In this document: one piece after another, positions 43,980-60,407 of the stretch | How the letters are laid out: each line of letters starts with the position of its first letter | How positions within the stretch are numbered: position 1 is the first letter of the stretch | Origin: Candidatus Omnitrophota bacterium | GTDB lineage: Bacteria; Hinthialibacterota; Hinthialibacteria; Hinthialibacterales; JAKPRU01 | Assembly (NCBI GenBank): GCA_029570205.1 | Contig: JAKQSI010000088.1 | Span: 33,744-97,743, forward strand | DNA length: 64,000 nt | Reading direction: 5' to 3' | Notes under the pieces: generated by a model | The model's database searches: none | Told to the model about the DNA's origin: nothing | The model's input: only the letters and a program-made list of their open reading frames with translations | Made by a program: the position numbers and the translations under genes

Positions 43980-44043
43980 GGCGGACAGCCGTCCGCCCTT
44001 ACGCATGACGTGCATTCCACGGGTGGCCCCGGCATCTTGCCGG
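43980..44043. repeat. Two short palindromes in a convergent gap
   Basis: GGCGGAC and GTCCGCC (43980-43997) pair around AGCC, followed by CTTACG. CCGGC and GCCGG (44029-44043) pair around ATCTT. They lie between the PIN toxin (plus) and the Fe-S scaffold gene (minus). They may fold at both mRNA ends. The first resembles the GTAGGGGC-type repeats in layout. Confidence 0.6.
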
Positions 44044-44061
44044 TGAATCGGGATAGCCGAA

Positions 44062-45021
44062 TCAACCGTTCGACAGAAGCGGCACTCCCAGCAGTCCCTC
44101 AATAATCAGATTCGTGGCGTCCTCTTCGTTAAGTCCCCGGCTCATCAGGGTATCCAGCTGCTTGGAGTCCACGCTTCCGATAGCGGCCTCGTGGGTGACA
44201 TGCGCCTTGGGGTGATAAACCTCTACAATCGGCACGGCTTTCGCCACCGCATTTCCCTTAACGATTTCCTTGCAATCCACATGTCCCCGTGCGTAAGCGG
44301 CATGGGCGGTCAGGGTGTTATAGATTTCTGCCCGTGCGGTGTCCTGAAGAGCGATATTCGTGGTGAGTACGCCGCGAGCATACTCGCCGACCAAATGGGC
44401 GGTCTCTCGAATGGAGATCCGGTCATCCTTGATCGCGCTGACACGGGCGGTGACCTCCGTAACACTCTTTGTCATTCCTGTGACCTCGACATCCATTTGA
44501 ATCTCGCCGACTCGTCCGCGAATCAGCTCGAAATCCGTCTGGTACCGTGCGCCCTCACAGACCTCCACCCTGGACTTCGGTACCACAACCACGCCGCCCT
44601 CTCCGCCGTGTATATGGCGCTCAAAATAGGCATACTGCGCACCCGGACCGACCTTGATAACCGCATCCATTTCATGTCGAATCTGCCGGGCGAACGGGAA
44701 TGTGCAATGGGCGAAGATACCCGCGCGGGCGTTCTCCTCCAACTCGATATCCAGAATGATCTCTTGCAGGCCCGTTTCCGGGATCATGCCGAAACACATT
44801 TGCACCGGCTTTTCGATCACCGTGTCCTTTTTCACAAGGAGCTTGGCGTCGATGCCGTTCTTGGTTTCCCTGGCATTCACCTCCAGCCCCGGCACCAGGT
44901 GAACACCGAGAACCTTGTTGTGGTGAATTTCGATATGAGCGATATTCGGGTCCTGGCGCAGACTGTGAGGATTTACGCCGATGGATTCGTACAGAGTTTC
45001 AATCAAACTGCTATTGGACAC
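44062..45021 (-). CDS. smsB: SUF-like minimal system scaffold SmsB (SufBD type)
   Basis: 319 residues from a GTG preceded by GGAGG at 6 bases. It is much shorter than SufB or SufD and has the SufBD beta-helix core: VGPGAQYAYFERHIHGGEGGVVV, then ARGHVDCKEIVKGNAVAKAVPIVEVYHPKAHVTHEAAIGSVD with the conserved His/Cys/Glu positions of the active interface. The start overlaps smsC by 11 bases. With smsC alone and no sufS, sufU, sufD or sufE next to it, this fits the two-gene SMS Fe-S assembly system proposed as ancestral. Cluster transfer would need partners from elsewhere. Confidence 0.9.
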   Translation of the reverse strand: MSNSSLIETLYESIGVNPHSLRQDPNIAHIEIHHNKVLGVHLVPGLEVNARETKNGIDAKLLVKKDTVIEKPVQMCFGMIPETGLQEIILDIELEENARAGIFAHCTFPFARQIRHEMDAVIKVGPGAQYAYFERHIHGGEGGVVVVPKSRVEVCEGARYQTDFELIRGRVGEIQMDVEVTGMTKSVTEVTARVSAIKDDRISIRETAHLVGEYARGVLTTNIALQDTARAEIYNTLTAHAAYARGHVDCKEIVKGNAVAKAVPIVEVYHPKAHVTHEAAIGSVDSKQLDTLMSRGLNEEDATNLIIEGLLGVPLLSNG

Positions 45022-45757
45022 GGGAACCCTCCGCAACAAGCTTTTCCGGATTCGGGTGGAGGCAGGGAATGCACTTGTTCTCGAAATAGCGGGCGATTTT
45101 GTCCGTGGACCCTTTATCGACCAAATGCCCGCAGCACAGAAGAAACGCGTGTTCCGCCTGGCGAAGCACAGTCAGGCTGTGCGTGATCAGAATGACGGTT
45201 ACACGGTTCTCGCGAAGTTTCTGCAATGCCTGAAAGATCCGTTCGAGCGCCTCGATATCGATCCCGCTGTCGGGTTCGTCCATCAGAACCAGTTTCGGTT
45301 CCATGGCCAGGATTCCCGCCAGTTCGATGCGCTTGCGCTCTCCACCGGAGAGGGTCTTATCCACGGCGCGATGGATGTATTCATCCGGCTCCAGGCCGAC
45401 ATCCTCCAAGACCGCGCGGACCCGTTCCTCGCTCTTGTCTTTCGCGCCGGACTGGATAAACCGTCGAACGGAAAGTCCCTCGAATCGTGCCGGTTCCTGC
45501 CAGGCCAGCGTGATGCCTCTCCGGGCGCGTTCGTAAACCGGAAGCCCCTTGATGGATGCGCCTTCGAACAGGATGTCTCCATCGAAATCGGTATAGCCGG
45601 AGATGCCCATGATGACATTCGCCGTTGTGGATTTCCCTGCGCCGTTCAGACCGATCAACGCGTGGATGTGTCCTTGCCAGAAATCCACGGATAATTCGTG
45701 GAGAATCTTTTTACCGCCGAGACTCAAACTTACGTTTTGCAATTGTAGAATCGTCAT
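45011..45757 (-). CDS. smsC: SufC-like ATPase SmsC of the minimal SUF system
   Basis: 248 residues, full SufC length. Walker A is GLNGAGKST, the signature is LSGGERKRIELAGIL (the SufC form) and Walker B is LVLMDEPDSGIDIEALE. AGGAGGG lies 6 bases before the ATG. It forms an ATPase-scaffold pair with SmsB and overlaps it by 11 bases. Annotated sufC in many pipelines. Confidence 0.92.
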   Translation of the reverse strand: MTILQLQNVSLSLGGKKILHELSVDFWQGHIHALIGLNGAGKSTTANVIMGISGYTDFDGDILFEGASIKGLPVYERARRGITLAWQEPARFEGLSVRRFIQSGAKDKSEERVRAVLEDVGLEPDEYIHRAVDKTLSGGERKRIELAGILAMEPKLVLMDEPDSGIDIEALERIFQALQKLRENRVTVILITHSLTVLRQAEHAFLLCCGHLVDKGSTDKIARYFENKCIPCLHPNPEKLVAEGSRVQ

Positions 45758-45817
45758 TCGATTCCCTCCTGATCCCTATCGGATCACGACGATAAGGATA
45801 CACGAGTCGGGGAGATT

Positions 45818-46003
45818 TCAAACAGATTCGTGGGAGGGAAACTCCCCATTTTGGTCAAGACGATCTCCGTGAGAGAGAATTGGGCGAAGATGGAGGGAGA
45901 CGCAATCCCACCTCACATCCCCCATAGATAGAGTCAAACACGAGCCGCCGGTTATGATCTGTTTACCGTCGGGCGAGAATGCAGCAACGGGGTACGTTCC
46001 CAT
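45818..46003 (-). pseudogene. Fragment resembling one WD40 repeat
   Basis: The frame translates to PVAAFSPDGKQIITGG near its start, the typical strand pair of a WD40 repeat, then decays with no second repeat. There is no convincing ribosome site and the frame is only 61 codons. It may be a remnant of a deleted WD40 protein gene. It lies in the 464-base gap between smsC and the fucosidase. Confidence 0.35.
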
Positions 46004-46118
46004 GGGCTCAGGCGCTGTCCAAAATCAACCTGATGAACTTTGTGGTCGTTTCCACCGGTCAACCCGGAATCGAAATCACAGCGGAAAGTACCCCGGCGGG
46101 CGCTTCAGCAGATCGAAA

Positions 46119-46158
46119 CGGGAAATTCCGGTTTTTCGGGAGTTCCCGCTTTTCTTTT
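46119..46158 (+). terminator. Hairpin with T-tract, possible attenuator before the fucosidase
   Basis: CGGGAA (46119-46124) and TTCCCG (46143-46148) close an inner CCG/CGG stem, followed by CTTTTCTTTT. No plus-strand gene precedes it directly. It may end antisense or leader transcription, or attenuate the fucosidase transcript that starts nearby. Confidence 0.35.
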
Positions 46159-46221
46159 CTGCAAGAATCCCTAAAATAGCGGCTGAACAAACAGAAAAAA
46201 GTCGAATAGAAGGAAACAAAA

Positions 46222-47493
46222 ATGAAGATCCGACAGATGACATCGCTCGTGCTGTGCAGTGGATTGTTTCTTTTAACGATGACTGCACGTGCTCAGGAAA
46301 CAGAATCCTACTTGCAGGCGAAACCGGAAGATATGCGGTGGTTCCGGGATGCGAAATTCGGCCTCTTCATCCACTGGGGGCCGGTCAGCCTGAAAGGGAC
46401 GGAGATCGGGTGGTCCCGGGGCGGCGAACGGCGGGGTATCAAAGGGGTCGGCCCCGTTCCCGTGGAAGAATACGATAATCTCTATAAGAAATTCAATCCG
46501 GTGAAATTCGATGCGAAGGAATGGGTACAGATCGCAAAAGACGCCGGAATGAAATACCTCGTGTTTACCGCCAAACATCACGATGGTTTCTCCATGTTCG
46601 ATACCAAACTGAGCGAATATAAAATTACGAATTCCCCGTTCCAGCGGGATGTTGTGGCGGAGCTGGCCAAAGCCTGCCACGAAGGGGGATTGAAATTGGG
46701 ATTCTATTATTCCCCGGTGGATTGGTATCACCCGGATTATCGTACGGAAAACCACAAACGCTACATTGAATTCCTGCATGGCCAGATTCGTGAATTGTGT
46801 ACCAATTACGGCCAGGTAGACATTCTATGGTTTGACGGATTGGGGGGAACCGCGGAGGACTGGGACTCCAACAATCTGTTCAAAATGATTCGGGAACTAC
46901 AACCGCATATTATTATTAACGATCGCGCCGGATTACCGGGGGACTTCGCGACACCGGAACAGACCATCGGCACGTTTCAAACAGAGAGACCCTGGGAGAG
47001 CTGCATTACCATCGGTACACAATGGGCCTGGAAACCCGCGGATGAGATTAAATCCGTAAGCGAGTGTATACATACATTGGTCCGTTGCGTGGGCGGAGAC
47101 GGAAATCTTCTGTTGAACGTAGGCCCCATGCCGGATGGGCGTATCGAGCCGCGCCAGGCCGCCCGCCTGCAGAAAATCGGCGAGTTTCTGAACCAGTGCG
47201 GCGAAAGCATTTACGGCACACGGGGCGGGCCGTTCCCGCCGGATTCCTGGGGAGCCGGTACGCATAAAGAAAAGAACATTTATGTTCATGTACTGAATTG
47301 GGACTCTGATAAACTGATCCTTCCACCGATCAAGAAACGAATCGTGAGAAACTCGATCCTGAACGGCGGGGTGTGTTTTGTGAAACAGACCGCGGAAGGA
47401 ATTGAGATCTCAACGCGTGAAGCCAACAAGAAGAAGATTGACACCGTCATTGTATTGGAACTGGACGGCCCGGTAACGGATGCGATGAAGTAA
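46222..47493 (+). CDS. Secreted alpha-L-fucosidase (GH29)
   Basis: 423 residues. A signal peptide (SLVLCSGLFLLTMTARAQ) precedes a GH29 barrel. Family segments are WFRDAKFGLFIHWGPVS, YLVFTAKHHDGFSMFDT and QVDILWFDGLGG, whose Asp is the expected nucleophile. The general acid of GH29 varies and cannot be fixed from sequence alone. AAGGA lies 7 bases before the ATG. It retains fucose from host or algal glycans and fits the rhamnosidase-like and esterase genes. A REP pair follows the stop. Confidence 0.92.
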   Translation: MKIRQMTSLVLCSGLFLLTMTARAQETESYLQAKPEDMRWFRDAKFGLFIHWGPVSLKGTEIGWSRGGERRGIKGVGPVPVEEYDNLYKKFNPVKFDAKEWVQIAKDAGMKYLVFTAKHHDGFSMFDTKLSEYKITNSPFQRDVVAELAKACHEGGLKLGFYYSPVDWYHPDYRTENHKRYIEFLHGQIRELCTNYGQVDILWFDGLGGTAEDWDSNNLFKMIRELQPHIIINDRAGLPGDFATPEQTIGTFQTERPWESCITIGTQWAWKPADEIKSVSECIHTLVRCVGGDGNLLLNVGPMPDGRIEPRQAARLQKIGEFLNQCGESIYGTRGGPFPPDSWGAGTHKEKNIYVHVLNWDSDKLILPPIKKRIVRNSILNGGVCFVKQTAEGIEISTREANKKKIDTVIVLELDGPVTDAMK

Positions 47494-47498
47494 ACCCT

Positions 47499-47569
47499 GG
47501 AGTGCGGGAGCGTCAGCTCCCGCCTTCCTTTTCAACCGACGAAGGCGGGAGCTGACGCTCCCGCACTCC
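47499..47569. repeat. Perfect 29-bp inverted repeat (REP) downstream of the transposase
   Basis: Arms 47499-47527 and 47541-47569 are exact reverse complements, separated by 13 bases (CTTTTCAACCGAC). Each arm itself contains a smaller palindromic region (GGGAGCGTCAGCTCCC). The element ends 4 bases before the transposase stop codon. It is identical in layout to the first part of the array on the other side of the gene. Confidence 0.9.
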
Positions 47570-47573
47570 ATAA

Positions 47574-48119
47574 TTAAAAATCATCGCGAACATTGACCCT
47601 CTCAAATCCGAACGACTCTACCTTGCGCCGGAATGAATCCTCTGCTTCATTCTTGAACCAGTTCGCCGAGCAGAACGGATATTGTTCTGCGACTGCCACA
47701 ATACCGTGCTTCACCGGATTATTGTGCACGTAGTTCAGTCGGGCATAATAACTCTTTTCATACGTCAGGCATGTGTCCCAATACTGAAACCACACCTGCC
47801 TCCCTTTTGTTCCATCGAATTGATTGAGCCGAATAGCCGTGACAGAATGCAGTCTTCGCACCATCCGGCGCAGCGAGTCAATTTCTTCCGATGATTGCGC
47901 AACAAAATGGTAGTGATTTGAAAAGATCGCCCACGCCTCCACTTGCCAGCCATACTTATCCGTGACCTCAAACAAAGACTCCTCCAACAGCCTCAAACGC
48001 TCATCGTCTCGAAATAGGCGCTCTTTATGCAAGGTTCCTGCTGTGACGATGAAAGTGGCACCCGGCCGAAACACGTGCAGCGGACTATGGTGCCAATCTG
48101 TACGAGATTCTGTCGCCAT
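47574..48119 (-). CDS. REP-associated tyrosine transposase (RAYT, IS200-like fold)
   Basis: 181 residues from the ATG preceded by AAGGAG at 10 bases. Y1/HUH nuclease motifs: NHYHFV (His-hydrophobic-His metal site) and YYARLNYVHNNPVKHG with the catalytic Tyr. RAYTs are single-copy relatives of IS200/IS605 transposases that bind and process REP palindromes rather than themselves. Here a perfect REP pair lies 4 bases after the stop and an amplified REP array begins 20 bases upstream of the start, so the gene is exactly bracketed by its probable substrate. Confidence 0.9.
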   Translation of the reverse strand: MATESRTDWHHSPLHVFRPGATFIVTAGTLHKERLFRDDERLRLLEESLFEVTDKYGWQVEAWAIFSNHYHFVAQSSEEIDSLRRMVRRLHSVTAIRLNQFDGTKGRQVWFQYWDTCLTYEKSYYARLNYVHNNPVKHGIVAVAEQYPFCSANWFKNEAEDSFRRKVESFGFERVNVRDDF

Positions 48120-48139
48120 TTCAGATGATCTCCTTCCTT

Positions 48140-48498
48140 GGAGTGCGGGAGCGTCAGCTCCCGCCTTCCTTTTCAACCGACGAAGGCGGGAGCTGACGCT
48201 CCCGCCTTACTTCAACCTTTTCAACCGACGAAGGCGGGAGCTGACGCTCCCGCCTTACTTCAACCTTTTCAACCGACGAAGGCGGGAGCTGACGCTCCCG
48301 CCTTACTTCAACCTCTTCAACCGACGAAGGCGGGAGCTGACGCTCCCGCCTTACTTCAACCTTTTCAACCGACGAAGGCGGGAGCTGACGCTCCCGCCTT
48401 GCTTCAACCTCTTCAACCGACAAAGGCGGGAGCTGACGCTCCCGCCTTGCTTCAACCTCTTCAACCGACAAAGGCGGGAGCTGACGCTCCCGCACTCC
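48140..48498. repeat. REP-derived array: seven 48-bp tandem units
   Basis: It starts with the same 29-bp arm as the downstream REP (48140-48168) and spacer. It then continues with seven units of 48 bp beginning at 48179, 48227, 48275, 48323, 48371, 48419 and 48467. Each unit has AAGGCGGGAGCTGACGCTCC plus CGCC and a CTTCAACC-type spacer. The last ends in the normal REP terminus (CGCACTCC). Spacers vary only at a few positions (TTTT/CTCT and ACG/ACA). Units have no unique spacers, so this is not CRISPR. It lies directly between the transposase and rmuC. Confidence 0.92.
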
Positions 48499-48503
48499 AT
48501 AAT

Positions 48504-49955
48504 TCATCTCTGAACTTCCGGCGCCTGTAACTGCCGCGGCGTGTTTTCGATTTGCGACAGTTCCTTAATCTCATCCTTGCTTTGAATACCCAGTTCGGTG
48601 AACTTACGTGCCGTAACCAGTACTCGCGATTCCAGCGATCCCGCCGCGGCGTTGTACTTTTCCACCGCTCTTCGCAGATGACTGCCGACATCATCAAAAT
48701 GGTCGGTAAATACACGTATTCGATCATACAATTCTTTTCCGAGGTCACTGACTTTCTGCGCGCTTTCGGCAATCTGTTCTTGCCGCCAGCCGTAGGCTAC
48801 CGCTCGAAGCAAAGCTATTAGCGTAGTCGGGCTTGCCGGAATCACCCGTTGACTGACCCCCTCTTCGATCAGCTCCGGCTCCTGCTCCAATGCGGCGCTG
48901 AAAAAACTCTCGCCGGGCAGAAACATCACGACAAATTCCGGTGTGGGGACAAACTGGTCCCAGTAGGCCTTCGCGCTGAGTTGTTTAATATGTTGCCGAA
49001 TCTGTCTCGCATGATCTGTTAATCGTTCCCGTCGTCTGTCTTCGTCAACAGCTTCCGCGGCATCCAAATATGCCTCTAACGGTGTTTTGGCATCCACGAC
49101 AACGTTCCTTCCGCCCGGCAGCCGGACTATAAGGTCCGGGCGAAGTCGCTCGGTGCCGCCGGTTGACTCCTGCTCTACAAAATCACAGTAATTGACCATT
49201 CCCGCCATTTCGACTACCCGTCTCAGCTGGATTTCGCCCCAGCGGCCGCGCACGGTCGGCGCGCGAAGGGCGCGGGTGAGATTCCCCGCTTCCTTGCGGA
49301 GTAGTTCCTGGGTTGTAATCAGGTTCTTTACCTGTTCTTGCAGGCCCCCATAAGCATTCTCGCGCAGCAGTTCCATTTGCCCGATTTCCTGCCTTACTTT
49401 GTCCAAAGACTCTTTGATCGGACCCACCAGCTCCCCAATTGCCTTCTGTCGTTGTTCAAGATCGCCTTTCGCCTGGACTTGGAATTTCTCGAGAGTCTCT
49501 TTGGCTAATTGCAGAAACGATTGATTATTGCTTTTCAGCGCCTCTGAAGAGAGCGCTTTGAAGGCGTTACTCAATTCTTCCCTGGCCCGATTCAGCAACT
49601 CCAGTTGTTCCTGGGCCACGCGTCTCTCATTCGCCAGATTGGTTTCCAATCGAGCATTTGCCTCCGAGATCTCGGTTACTTTTTGAGATTTCCCATCGAG
49701 ATCCTTTCGCGCGTTTTGTAAGTCCTCCTGTGCCTGTCTCAGGGTTGCCTCCAAAGCAGCGGCTGTACGATCCCGTTCCGACAGTCTACTCTCCTGTTCG
49801 TTTGCTTTCTCTCGCACGGCTTGTAAATCGGCTTCTGCCTGCCGAAGACGTTCGCGGGTTGCCGTCGCCCGGGAATACATCAGCAGCCACACGAAGCCGG
49901 CGCCCACAGCCACTCCGAGAGCAAAGATTAGAAGAATCATGCCTGTTTCCATCAT
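48504..49955 (-). CDS. rmuC: DNA recombination protein RmuC
   Basis: 483 residues from the ATG preceded by GGAGG at 5 bases; a second ATG follows directly. The longer frame to 50207 would overlap the neighbouring gene and is rejected. A membrane anchor at the N-terminus ([21 protein letters not shown]) is followed by a long coiled coil and the RmuC nuclease-like domain with [25 protein letters not shown] (PD-(D/E)xK type). RmuC limits inversion at short inverted repeats, which is notable next to an inverted-repeat array. Its stop lies 5 bases from that array. Confidence 0.94.
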
Positions 49956-50043
49956 CGATTCCTCCGTAGTAATCGGATATTCGGTCGTTAATGCCCCATC
50001 TATGAATAACGTCTGATCTTGTCTATAAGCAAGACGTTGGCGA

Positions 50044-51894
50044 TCATTCTCGTTGCAGAGCAACAATTTCTCTCGGCGGAATTGCGATTGCGTACGTTCC
50101 GGCGGGGGTCTGCGGAATGATCTCGATGTGATGAAGAATCTCTTTCCAGACTCCATCCAGTCGAAGATGAGCGCGGACTCCACCATCACGGAAGTTCTCG
50201 ATAACAATCGTATCCTTTCCCAGAAGGTACGAGGAAACTCGCGTGGGAGCGCTCATCAGAAACGGATCACGGTGAACAATATCGGAGCGAATCCGGGAAA
50301 CGGCGAGCTCCGGCATGTCGAGAAAGGAAACCGGAGCAGGAGGCAGAAACCGCTCGTTTACCGCATCGAAATCTTCCTGGGAAAAAGTAGACAAATTGAG
50401 CACCATCGCCCTCCCGCCTTCGGAAGTCGCCCGTTCGGTAAACAGGGGAATCTCTCGGTCGTCTGCGAGCAATCGCACGGGTATTTCTGTATCCGGCAGC
50501 GCATGAAGGTCAAACGAAACACGAATCGGCTGATCCGAACGAATCTCTTTCGTCTCGCCGGGTTGGGAAAGCGGGGAATCGAAGACCCTCAGACGATTAC
50601 TTTCGAATTTCTTCCGAGAAATCGGTTCTTCCTGGTAGCCGAATCGTGTGCGCACTTCGCGCTCACACGCCAGCGACTCCAGCAAGGCCGGCGTGAGAAC
50701 GACACTTCCGCCCTTTTGAAAGTGGCCTGCCATACGATCCAGGAGATACGGGTCTTTCAAGGCATGAGAGGAAAGAAACACCGTGCCGTTCTCTTTGGGG
50801 AACTCGTGACATGGAACCACAGGAAATCCAAGCATTCCCAGGTAATCAAAAATAAAATATTCACCCTTGTTCCCTCTACTCTCCAGTGGTTTGTACACAT
50901 ATACGCCATGCAGGTTTCGAACTTTACGCAATTCGCGCAGCGTGCGCAATGTCGGTATAGATTGGACAAAGGCTTCCTGTACCTCGCCGAATTCCAGCAG
51001 ATTATGCAGATGAAACAGAGTGAGATGTTGCGCGCCGGCAAGGACACTCTGGTAGCCCTGTTCGACAAAGACTTCCGCCGGAGTATCGCCATGATCATAC
51101 CAGGCGCCGAGTGTGTTTTCCGGATGAAAACTTGCAATCCAGGCAAAATTCATGAAGCCCTGGAATTGTTGTACAAACCCATATTGCAGCGTATTGGGAT
51201 CGCGGGTTTCCGTACCCACCCAGGCTGCGTCGAAGTCCCGTCCTTCCCGGTCCGGGTTGTAGCCGAATTCGTGAAACTTATCATACCATTGCGGGTATTT
51301 AATGATGACTCGGCATTGGGGATTTGCCTCGTGCGCGGGGCGGACAATTCGATTCCTTCCGACATGAGCCATCAGGGCGGCTCTGTATTCCTCCCAGGTT
51401 CTGGCGCCGCGCGCGCGTTCACACAGTGGGCAGGTACAGAAGGTCATAAAGAAATCATCTACAATGATCTCGTCAAAATCTTCCGCCGCCCGTCGGCACA
51501 GATCCGCAAGGTCCGTCTGCGTTTTCTCGTGGGTATAGCAGAAACAATGGCCGGTAGGGGACAGGTGGCCCCAACCGCCCTCTCCCGGTGCGGTGGTAAC
51601 CCCGGCCGCAACCTCGAATCCCTGCGAAGCGAAATAATCCCGGCAGGTTCTCGCCAGATCCGGGTCCACCAGGTGTCCGCTGCGCAGCAGATCGATCACG
51701 ATTTTTGTTGCCTCCAAGCGGCGCAGAACGGCCACGGCTTTTTCGCGGCCTTCGGGCGTATCCAAGTGATTTTCCACATCCGAGGTCACAGCGAAAACCT
51801 CAATACGAAGGTCGCTCTCTGTGGCGGTCGCTCGAGCCGCAACACCGAAAAACGAGGAAATGATCAGACTGACAGTCAAAAGGAGATTCATCAC
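50044..51894 (-). CDS. Secreted TIM-barrel-like protein of unknown activity
   Basis: 616 residues with a signal peptide ([21 protein letters not shown]). The first 300 residues look like a (beta/alpha)8 barrel similar to putative glycosidases: [66 protein letters not shown]. The Asp pair in VDDFF and the Cys cluster CTCPLC with an earlier HCFC are conserved-looking and may bind metal or form disulfides. A flavodoxin-like middle and C-terminal beta part ([14 protein letters not shown]) follow, as in trimeric glycosidases such as GH42. No catalytic pair can be assigned. Upstream GAGAGG is 11 bases from the first ATG. Confidence 0.72.
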
Positions 51895-52073
51895 GCTGCA
51901 AACCTCTCATTCAAGGGTGACATAAGGCGCGCGACATACCGTGCCGACGCCCAATGCCGCACTATGCACCAGGGTTCGCACAAACTCCAGTGAGGCCCTC
52001 ATCACTCGCATCCGGCACGGAGCGGGATTATCATGGAACATTTGAATGAATCTTCGCCGCGGATGTACCGAGA
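51895..52073. other. Divergent gap, nothing recognised
   Basis: Upstream region of both the secreted protein (minus) and the PA14-glycosyltransferase gene (plus). No convincing promoter, operator or repeat was found. Confidence 0.4.
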
Positions 52074-60311: not shown

Positions 60312-60407
60312 GTAGGGGCGACGCATGCGTCGCCCCTACGGGTGCGTCGTCTCTACAGATGCCTCACCCCTACGGGTGTGTCGCCCCTACGGATGCGTCG
60401 CCCCCTT
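60312..60407. repeat. Palindrome plus 17-bp tandem array derived from one arm
   Basis: A 28-bp perfect palindrome (60312-60339): GTAGGGGC, core GACGCATGCGTC, GCCCCTAC. Its right arm is repeated as 17-bp units: 60323-60339 GCATGCGTCGCCCCTAC, 60340-60356, 60357-60373, 60374-60390 and 60391-60407. The last three bear consensus GGRTGYGTCGCCCCTAC with differences. The outer frame equals that of the repeat at 21882. It lies between DUF4912 and GH57 genes. Confidence 0.88.

Follow-up and report, generated by a model that had tools for sequence, protein, structure and literature searches.

The locus analyzed here raises the question of how a gene for a REP-associated tyrosine transposase (RAYT) came to lie between a compact inverted pair of REPs on one side and a tandem array of related hairpins on the other, and whether such an array is the work of the transposase or of the hairpins themselves. 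The window, that is, the entire 64,000-nt stretch of DNA that was analyzed, comes from a genome (G000) that is a metagenome bin of 131 contigs; the genome-wide counts given below were obtained by pattern and BLAST searches. The features that carry the argument are listed here, with coordinates in the window unless another sequence is named.

46222..47493, plus strand: alpha-L-fucosidase family gene, left flank and site marker (PF01120)
47498..47570, no strand: downstream REPIN, an inverted pair of 30-nt REP arms, each with a TGGA foot, around a 13-nt loop (fold and foot-plus-stem pattern)
47571..47575, no strand: TAATT beside the downstream REPIN (read from the sequence; putatively significant)
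47574..48119, minus strand: RAYT (TnpA-REP) gene, 181 aa (NF047646, 4er8 match, invariant HUH and Tyr)
48139..48168, plus strand: footed left arm of the REPIN that is expanded upstream of the gene (repeat and foot pattern searches)
48182..48470, no strand: inner part of the expanded REPIN, with six chimeric hairpins that lack a foot and have a period of 48 bp (TRF; feet missing on both sides)
48471..48499, minus strand: footed right arm at the outer end of the expanded REPIN (repeat and foot pattern searches)
48504..50207, minus strand: rmuC, right flank and site marker (PF02646)
L208:924-1353 and 1977-2269 (G000:C89 around 46083-46439), strand not given: 38-bp tandem repeats, the arrays of the second RAYT

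A RAYT between two copies of one REPIN

The identity of the transposase is clear. The 181-aa protein scores 96.8 bits against the NCBIfam model NF047646 (REP-associated tyrosine transposase; cut-off 80) and also matches Pfam Y1_Tnp; its closest solved sequence is 4er8, E. coli TnpA-REP on its REP hairpin (E = 1.6e-6), and the predicted structure (pLDDT 90.5) has 4er8 as its best PDB match as well (E = 8e-10), followed by the IS608 and ISDra2 transposases. The protein contains the HUH motif N68-H69-Y-H71 and the catalytic Y130 within YVHNNP, the class 2 Y---NP signature, and N68, H69, H71, and Y130 are invariant in a 28-sequence alignment of relatives, made without L098, which contains a stop codon; all 28 aligned members of the clade match NF047646 at E <= 0.001. 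An IS200/IS605 insertion sequence was considered and rejected, given the single gene copy in the genome and a signature that is Y---NP, not Y---Q.

Downstream of the RAYT, two inverted REPs of 30 nt each (47498-47527 and 47541-47570), 100% complementary across a loop of 13 nt, form one long hairpin, that is, a REPIN, with a DNA fold of -43.3 kcal/mol (z = -13.3 against dinucleotide shuffles) and an end located 3 nt from the complement of the RAYT stop codon (47574-47576). Upstream, starting 19 nt before the RAYT ATG (48119), the region 48139-48499 consists of eight hairpins with a period of 48, one left arm and seven right-facing ones, within which TRF delineates 48168-48493 (period 48, 6.8 copies, 98% match). 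The two flanks of the RAYT are 99% identical over the first 70 nt and, therefore, are both copies of one REPIN. In the window, the foot-plus-stem pattern is matched 18 times, always at the RAYT locus, compared to 0.36 matches expected by chance; together with the hairpin z of -13, this shows that the repeat pattern is not fortuitous. The preliminary description, which placed a RAYT among its own REPs, is borne out in this respect, with repeat coordinates accurate to within a base or two (an arm of 29 nt, 4 nt from the stop codon, and an array 20 nt upstream).

Elsewhere in the genome, the 20-nt REP core is present in 19 exact copies and the foot-plus-stem REP in 25 copies, with zero matches in the control in each case (reverse-read for the core); the RAYT is thus flanked by REPs that are also dispersed in its host genome. 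An accidental association between gene and repeat, which had been entertained at the outset, does not hold up, because the REP occurs elsewhere in this genome and the relatives of the transposase carry REPs of the same design.

Several further observations pertain to the surroundings of the gene. The first arm of the array abuts the presumed RAYT ribosome-binding site (48120-48139, AGGAAGGAG), and the array hairpins could influence RAYT translation or block transcription coming from rmuC, an open reading frame with its 3' end at 48504 and a real start that is probably further in than listed. The TAATT next to the downstream REPIN recurs immediately beyond the array (48500-48504), and the sister species have it at this site as native sequence. 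At 60312-60404, GTAGGGGCGACGCATGCGTCGCCCCTAC-like palindromes that end in GTAG/CTAC form a short tandem series resembling a double-foot GTAG REP. On contig C115 (L028:1460-1530), a GTAG-type palindrome (GTAGGGGCGCACGGCTGTGCGCCC) is fused directly to a TGGA-footed REP; the counterpart of this place (L160) in G001, one of two sister species compared below, has neither. A search of 44000-52000 against Rfam yielded no structured RNA match, and no match to the locus was detected among 72,556 plasmid records. A CRISPR-like array was also considered and rejected, as the spacers are nearly identical and no cas gene was found among the neighboring genes tested.

TGGA-footed REPs in a clade that spans many phyla

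Characterized RAYTs tell their own repeats from others partly by the REP foot. In the REPs described here, the 5' foot of the hairpin is TGGA(G)TGC and not the canonical GT[AG]G. This RAYT has relatives, 45-62% identical to it, in bins that were assigned to over a dozen phyla, including, among others, KSB1, Ignavibacteriota, Chloroflexota, Planctomycetota, Hydrogenedentota, Sumerlaeota, Acidobacteriota, WOR-3 (Caldifarciminota), Armatimonadota, Lentisphaerota, Verrucomicrobiota, Poribacteria, and Chlamydiota, and the REPs of these relatives carry the foot TTTGGAGTGC where GTAG is usual. An unbiased scan of tetramers showed hairpins with TGGA in front of them near the gene at 29 of the 35 clade loci, compared to 4/35 in DNA at a distance of over 1 kb and 4/35 beside more distant RAYTs; GTAG occupies this position at a single clade locus out of 35, and the next commonest tetramers overlap TGGA inside TTTGGAGTGC. 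The conservation extends outside the search word, with G, T, G, and C following TGGA at 67-93%. Across the clade, the foot is constant and the stem and loop are variable; REP density is 5.1 per kb near the gene versus 0.43 far away, and both flanks of the gene contain REPs at 27 of 34 loci.

The protein may have changed along with the foot. The GTAG-recognition region of E. coli TnpA-REP has been discussed as W94, Q95, E100, H101, and R104 (PMC6006769); by alignment to the 4er8 sequence, these residues correspond to W110, F111, D115, T116, and T119, so that the GTAG contacts Q95, H101, and R104 are replaced by F, T, and T, within a motif, WDTxLT, that is retained in most of the clade. As far as alignment can tell, the altered contact positions fit the altered foot. 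The REP feet described in two surveys (PMC3733652, PMC6006769) are GT[AG]G, CGTC and, for class 3, CnGA, and we found no description of a TGGA foot in the literature searched, most of it outside subscription journals.

In a quick tree, the phylum changes 15 times, compared to a possible minimum of 11 and a shuffled mean of 21.9, so that the phyla are both clustered and mixed. We do not claim transfer between phyla as shown; bins can hold foreign contigs. Three RAYTs from Chloroflexi, Anaerolineales, and Hydrogenedentota bins (L067, L068, L072) share their flanking sequences to the left and right of the gene, a hint of either a single inherited site or a misplaced contig.

The array is the inside of a REPIN

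Contrary to the preliminary description, the repeated unit is not the full REP arm. The foot, TGGAGT, is present on the first and the last of the eight upstream hairpins only; the six inner ones lack it, being flanked by GAAG or AAAG on one side and by an AAG-type sequence on the other. Because only the outermost hairpins are footed, the array is the inside of one REPIN, in which each inner hairpin equals the inner flank of the right arm joined to the inner flank of the left arm. The 3' half-stems of the two arms, both GCTCCCGC, at 48157 and 48198, are 41 bp apart, and the 41-nt product predicted for a slip between them differs from the observed 48-nt unit by zero mismatches and one 7-nt insertion. 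Units 1, 2, and 4 are identical, ordered variants are found in units 3, 5, and 6, and units 5 and 6 contain extra ones, a pattern that fits the one expected of a tandem array growing by slippage.

Nor is the expansion tied to this gene, as had been proposed. The array on contig C26 also combines footed outer arms with footless inner arms (82-bp unit, 4.4 copies), with a spacer unrelated to that of the 48-bp array; the array on C14, located at the contig end, has a 33-bp unit that retains the foot (8.4 copies); and C71, C114, and C64 contain about two REP copies each, with a 34-bp unit and intact feet in the case of C114. REP arrays, then, occur in the genome where no RAYT is near. A second RAYT, on C89, for which BLASTP against the first one gave no useful alignment, is bracketed by 38-bp arrays of a GTAG-footed REP (10.7 and 7.7 copies); its counterpart in the other sister species, G002 (L209), is without these arrays. 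The arrays at the other sites and those of the second RAYT imply that expansion is general to the REP hairpins of this genome, not special to the gene in the window, although RAYT proximity may still matter, given the foot-bearing arrays on both sides of the second RAYT.

Three states of one site

Comparison with the two sister species places the expansion in an evolutionary context. At the RAYT site, G001 has no REP, and G002, in which RmuC is 94% identical, has a solo palindrome, TTGGAGTGCGGGAGC-TGAC-GCTCCCGCACTCCA, and no RAYT. This palindrome is the predicted product of a junction between the outer arms at the 5' half-stem, with one base that differs just outside of it. At the C26 site, both sisters carry a plain REPIN, which indicates that the expansion is derived in the present lineage; at the C114 site, G002 has one REP versus two in this genome. 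The sisters have 10 and 8 REPs, fewer than the genome studied here, although both are fragmented bins, and within these fragmented assemblies no array of two or more complete REP copies in the same direction was found; G002 has one array that consists of a truncated and a full unit. The family model detects RAYTs of other types in G002, so that only the cognate RAYT type is absent from the sisters.

Slippage, transposase, or selection

In our assessment, the locus is probably best explained as a REPtron of a TGGA-footed class in which half-stem slippage occurred inside the upstream REPIN. What the analysis establishes is the anatomy of the locus, the unit arithmetic, the deletion junction, the species comparison, and the conservation of the foot; the activity of the RAYT, slippage as the process, and the order of events are our inference. 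The REPtron would consist of the RAYT flanked, in direct orientation, by two cognate REPIN copies in which TTTGGAGTGC replaces GT[AG]G as the foot; the RAYT, as an HUH/Tyr single-strand nuclease, presumably recognizes the foot and the hairpin and would have spread REPs and REPINs through the genome. Separately, the upstream REPIN would have expanded internally through slippage of the nascent strand (or exchange between sisters) at the 3' half-stems, which produced a footless inner hairpin with an inner flank on either side, to which a 7-bp insertion would have been added, setting the period at 48, followed by ordinary tandem slippage or unequal exchange up to six inner copies. In the opposite event, a deletion between the 5' half-stems of the outer arms, GCGGGAGC, would leave a solo double-foot palindrome, such as the one in G002. 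The two outcomes do not appear to stem from a single reciprocal exchange: the loop sequences show that the deletion in G002 went via the 5' half-stem and the duplication via the 3' half-stem, and this variant was dropped because different half-stems were used. The slip model is supported by the loss of the foot from the inner hairpins of both the 48-bp array and the 82-bp array on C26, the spacers of which are unrelated. The model is burdened by the 7-bp insertion, which is an extra assumption, by the 82-bp spacer of the C26 array, which holds sequence that slippage within the ancestral REPIN alone does not supply, and by the intact-foot arrays (33 bp on C14 and 34 bp on C114), which require a different starting slip.

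The principal competing explanation, which we consider unlikely, is amplification catalyzed by the RAYT itself, whereby cuts at REP feet, followed by strand transfer or via circular single-stranded intermediates, add hairpin units next to the gene. Tandem arrays are indeed enriched within 1 kb of the gene (12 of 36 clade loci, with the local REP contained, by inspection, in 10 of these 12 arrays, and 11 of 34 other RAYT loci) over their incidence further out (3/36 and 2/34, respectively); each of the two RAYTs in this genome has arrays of its own REPs on either side, and the sisters, in which the cognate RAYT type is missing, lack arrays of complete units. Against this explanation stand the footless inner units of the 48-bp and 82-bp arrays and the arrays at sites without a nearby RAYT; the unit itself is explained by half-stem slippage, and the contrast with the sisters is blunted by their fragmentation and by the partial array in G002. 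The preliminary description left the choice between slippage and RAYT processing open; of the two candidate processes, slippage fits the 48-bp unit better and has good support from the unit arithmetic and the sister-species junction, and the RAYT may have taken part in the expansion.

Selection for the array as a host element between rmuC and the RAYT, such as a transcription barrier, an mRNA stabilizer, or a gyrase/IHF site, is compatible with the presence of strong hairpins between two same-strand genes and with the roles proposed for BIMEs in E. coli (summarized in PMC2817692), but seems improbable, considering that the array is absent at the orthologous site in both sister species, that unit number and period vary from site to site, and that no constraint on the spacer sequence was seen. 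Still less probable, to the point that we hardly reckon with it, is misassembly of the metagenome bin as the source of the array or its copy number: C14 and C64 do end inside REP arrays, a usual sign of broken assembly in a bin with this many contigs, but the ordered variants among the units are not expected from a simple assembly artifact, and independent arrays with different periods exist at many sites.

Relationship to known REP systems

A RAYT accompanied by REPs is known; two features appear to be new, the TGGA foot that many phyla share and the expansion of a REPIN between its own feet. Amplification next to the gene, which the preliminary description deemed unusual, is in fact seen at about a third of RAYT loci, and has a precedent in Pseudomonas fluorescens SBW25, where higher-order REPIN clusters lie beside each of three RAYTs (Bertels and Rainey 2011, PMC3116915). 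The two systems share a RAYT with cognate inverted REP doublets, adjacent REPIN clusters, and tandem repeats that include flanking sequence, but in SBW25, whole REPINs of the GTAG/GTGG type are repeated, whereas here it is the inside of one REPIN, with footless inner hairpins. With the E. coli TnpA-REP/REPtron (4er8) and the classes of Quentin et al. 2018 (PMC6006769), our RAYT shares the HUH/Y1 fold, the class 2 YVHNNP, REPs on both sides, and low copy number; unlike these, it is associated with the foot TGGAGTGC, not GT[AG]G. Compared by description, the combination of HYH and YVHNNP has no exact match among the tabulated subclasses (PMC6006769), and the nearest one by HYH and W[YH], again by description, is 2.8, which has HYH in common with our RAYT but differs in the foot, its REPs being GT[AG]G. 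The palindrome of G002, footed at each end as if by a central deletion in an inverted REP dimer, resembles the double-foot REPs of subclass 2.4 (PMC6006769), from which it differs in the TGGAGT foot and in that the products of deletion and expansion are found at one orthologous site. The GTAG and CGTC REP superfamilies (Di Nocera 2013, PMC3733652) are likewise described, in the available text, as short tagged palindromes and dimers, the GTAG kind going with tyrosine transposases; neither tag is present here, and that text contains no TGGA-footed family.

On balance, and with only a slight preference over the contrary, we are inclined to view these systems as a distinct REPtron class, distributed across more than a dozen phyla, with TTTGGAGTGC-footed REPs, RAYTs in which the GTAG-contact residues are replaced, and REPINs that expand internally by half-stem slippage. 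Such slippage would make deletion, yielding the double-foot palindrome, and duplication, yielding the footless array, two outcomes of one hairpin instability. If the inner units are no longer substrates of the RAYT, the arrays would be by-products of this instability and not a multiplication of RAYT targets. A clade in which the foot is different and the contact positions have changed to match provides a natural test of how foot recognition evolves, and one site that, within a single genus, exists in three states, empty, with a solo palindrome, and with a RAYT and an expanded REPIN, illustrates how REPINs can grow and decay.
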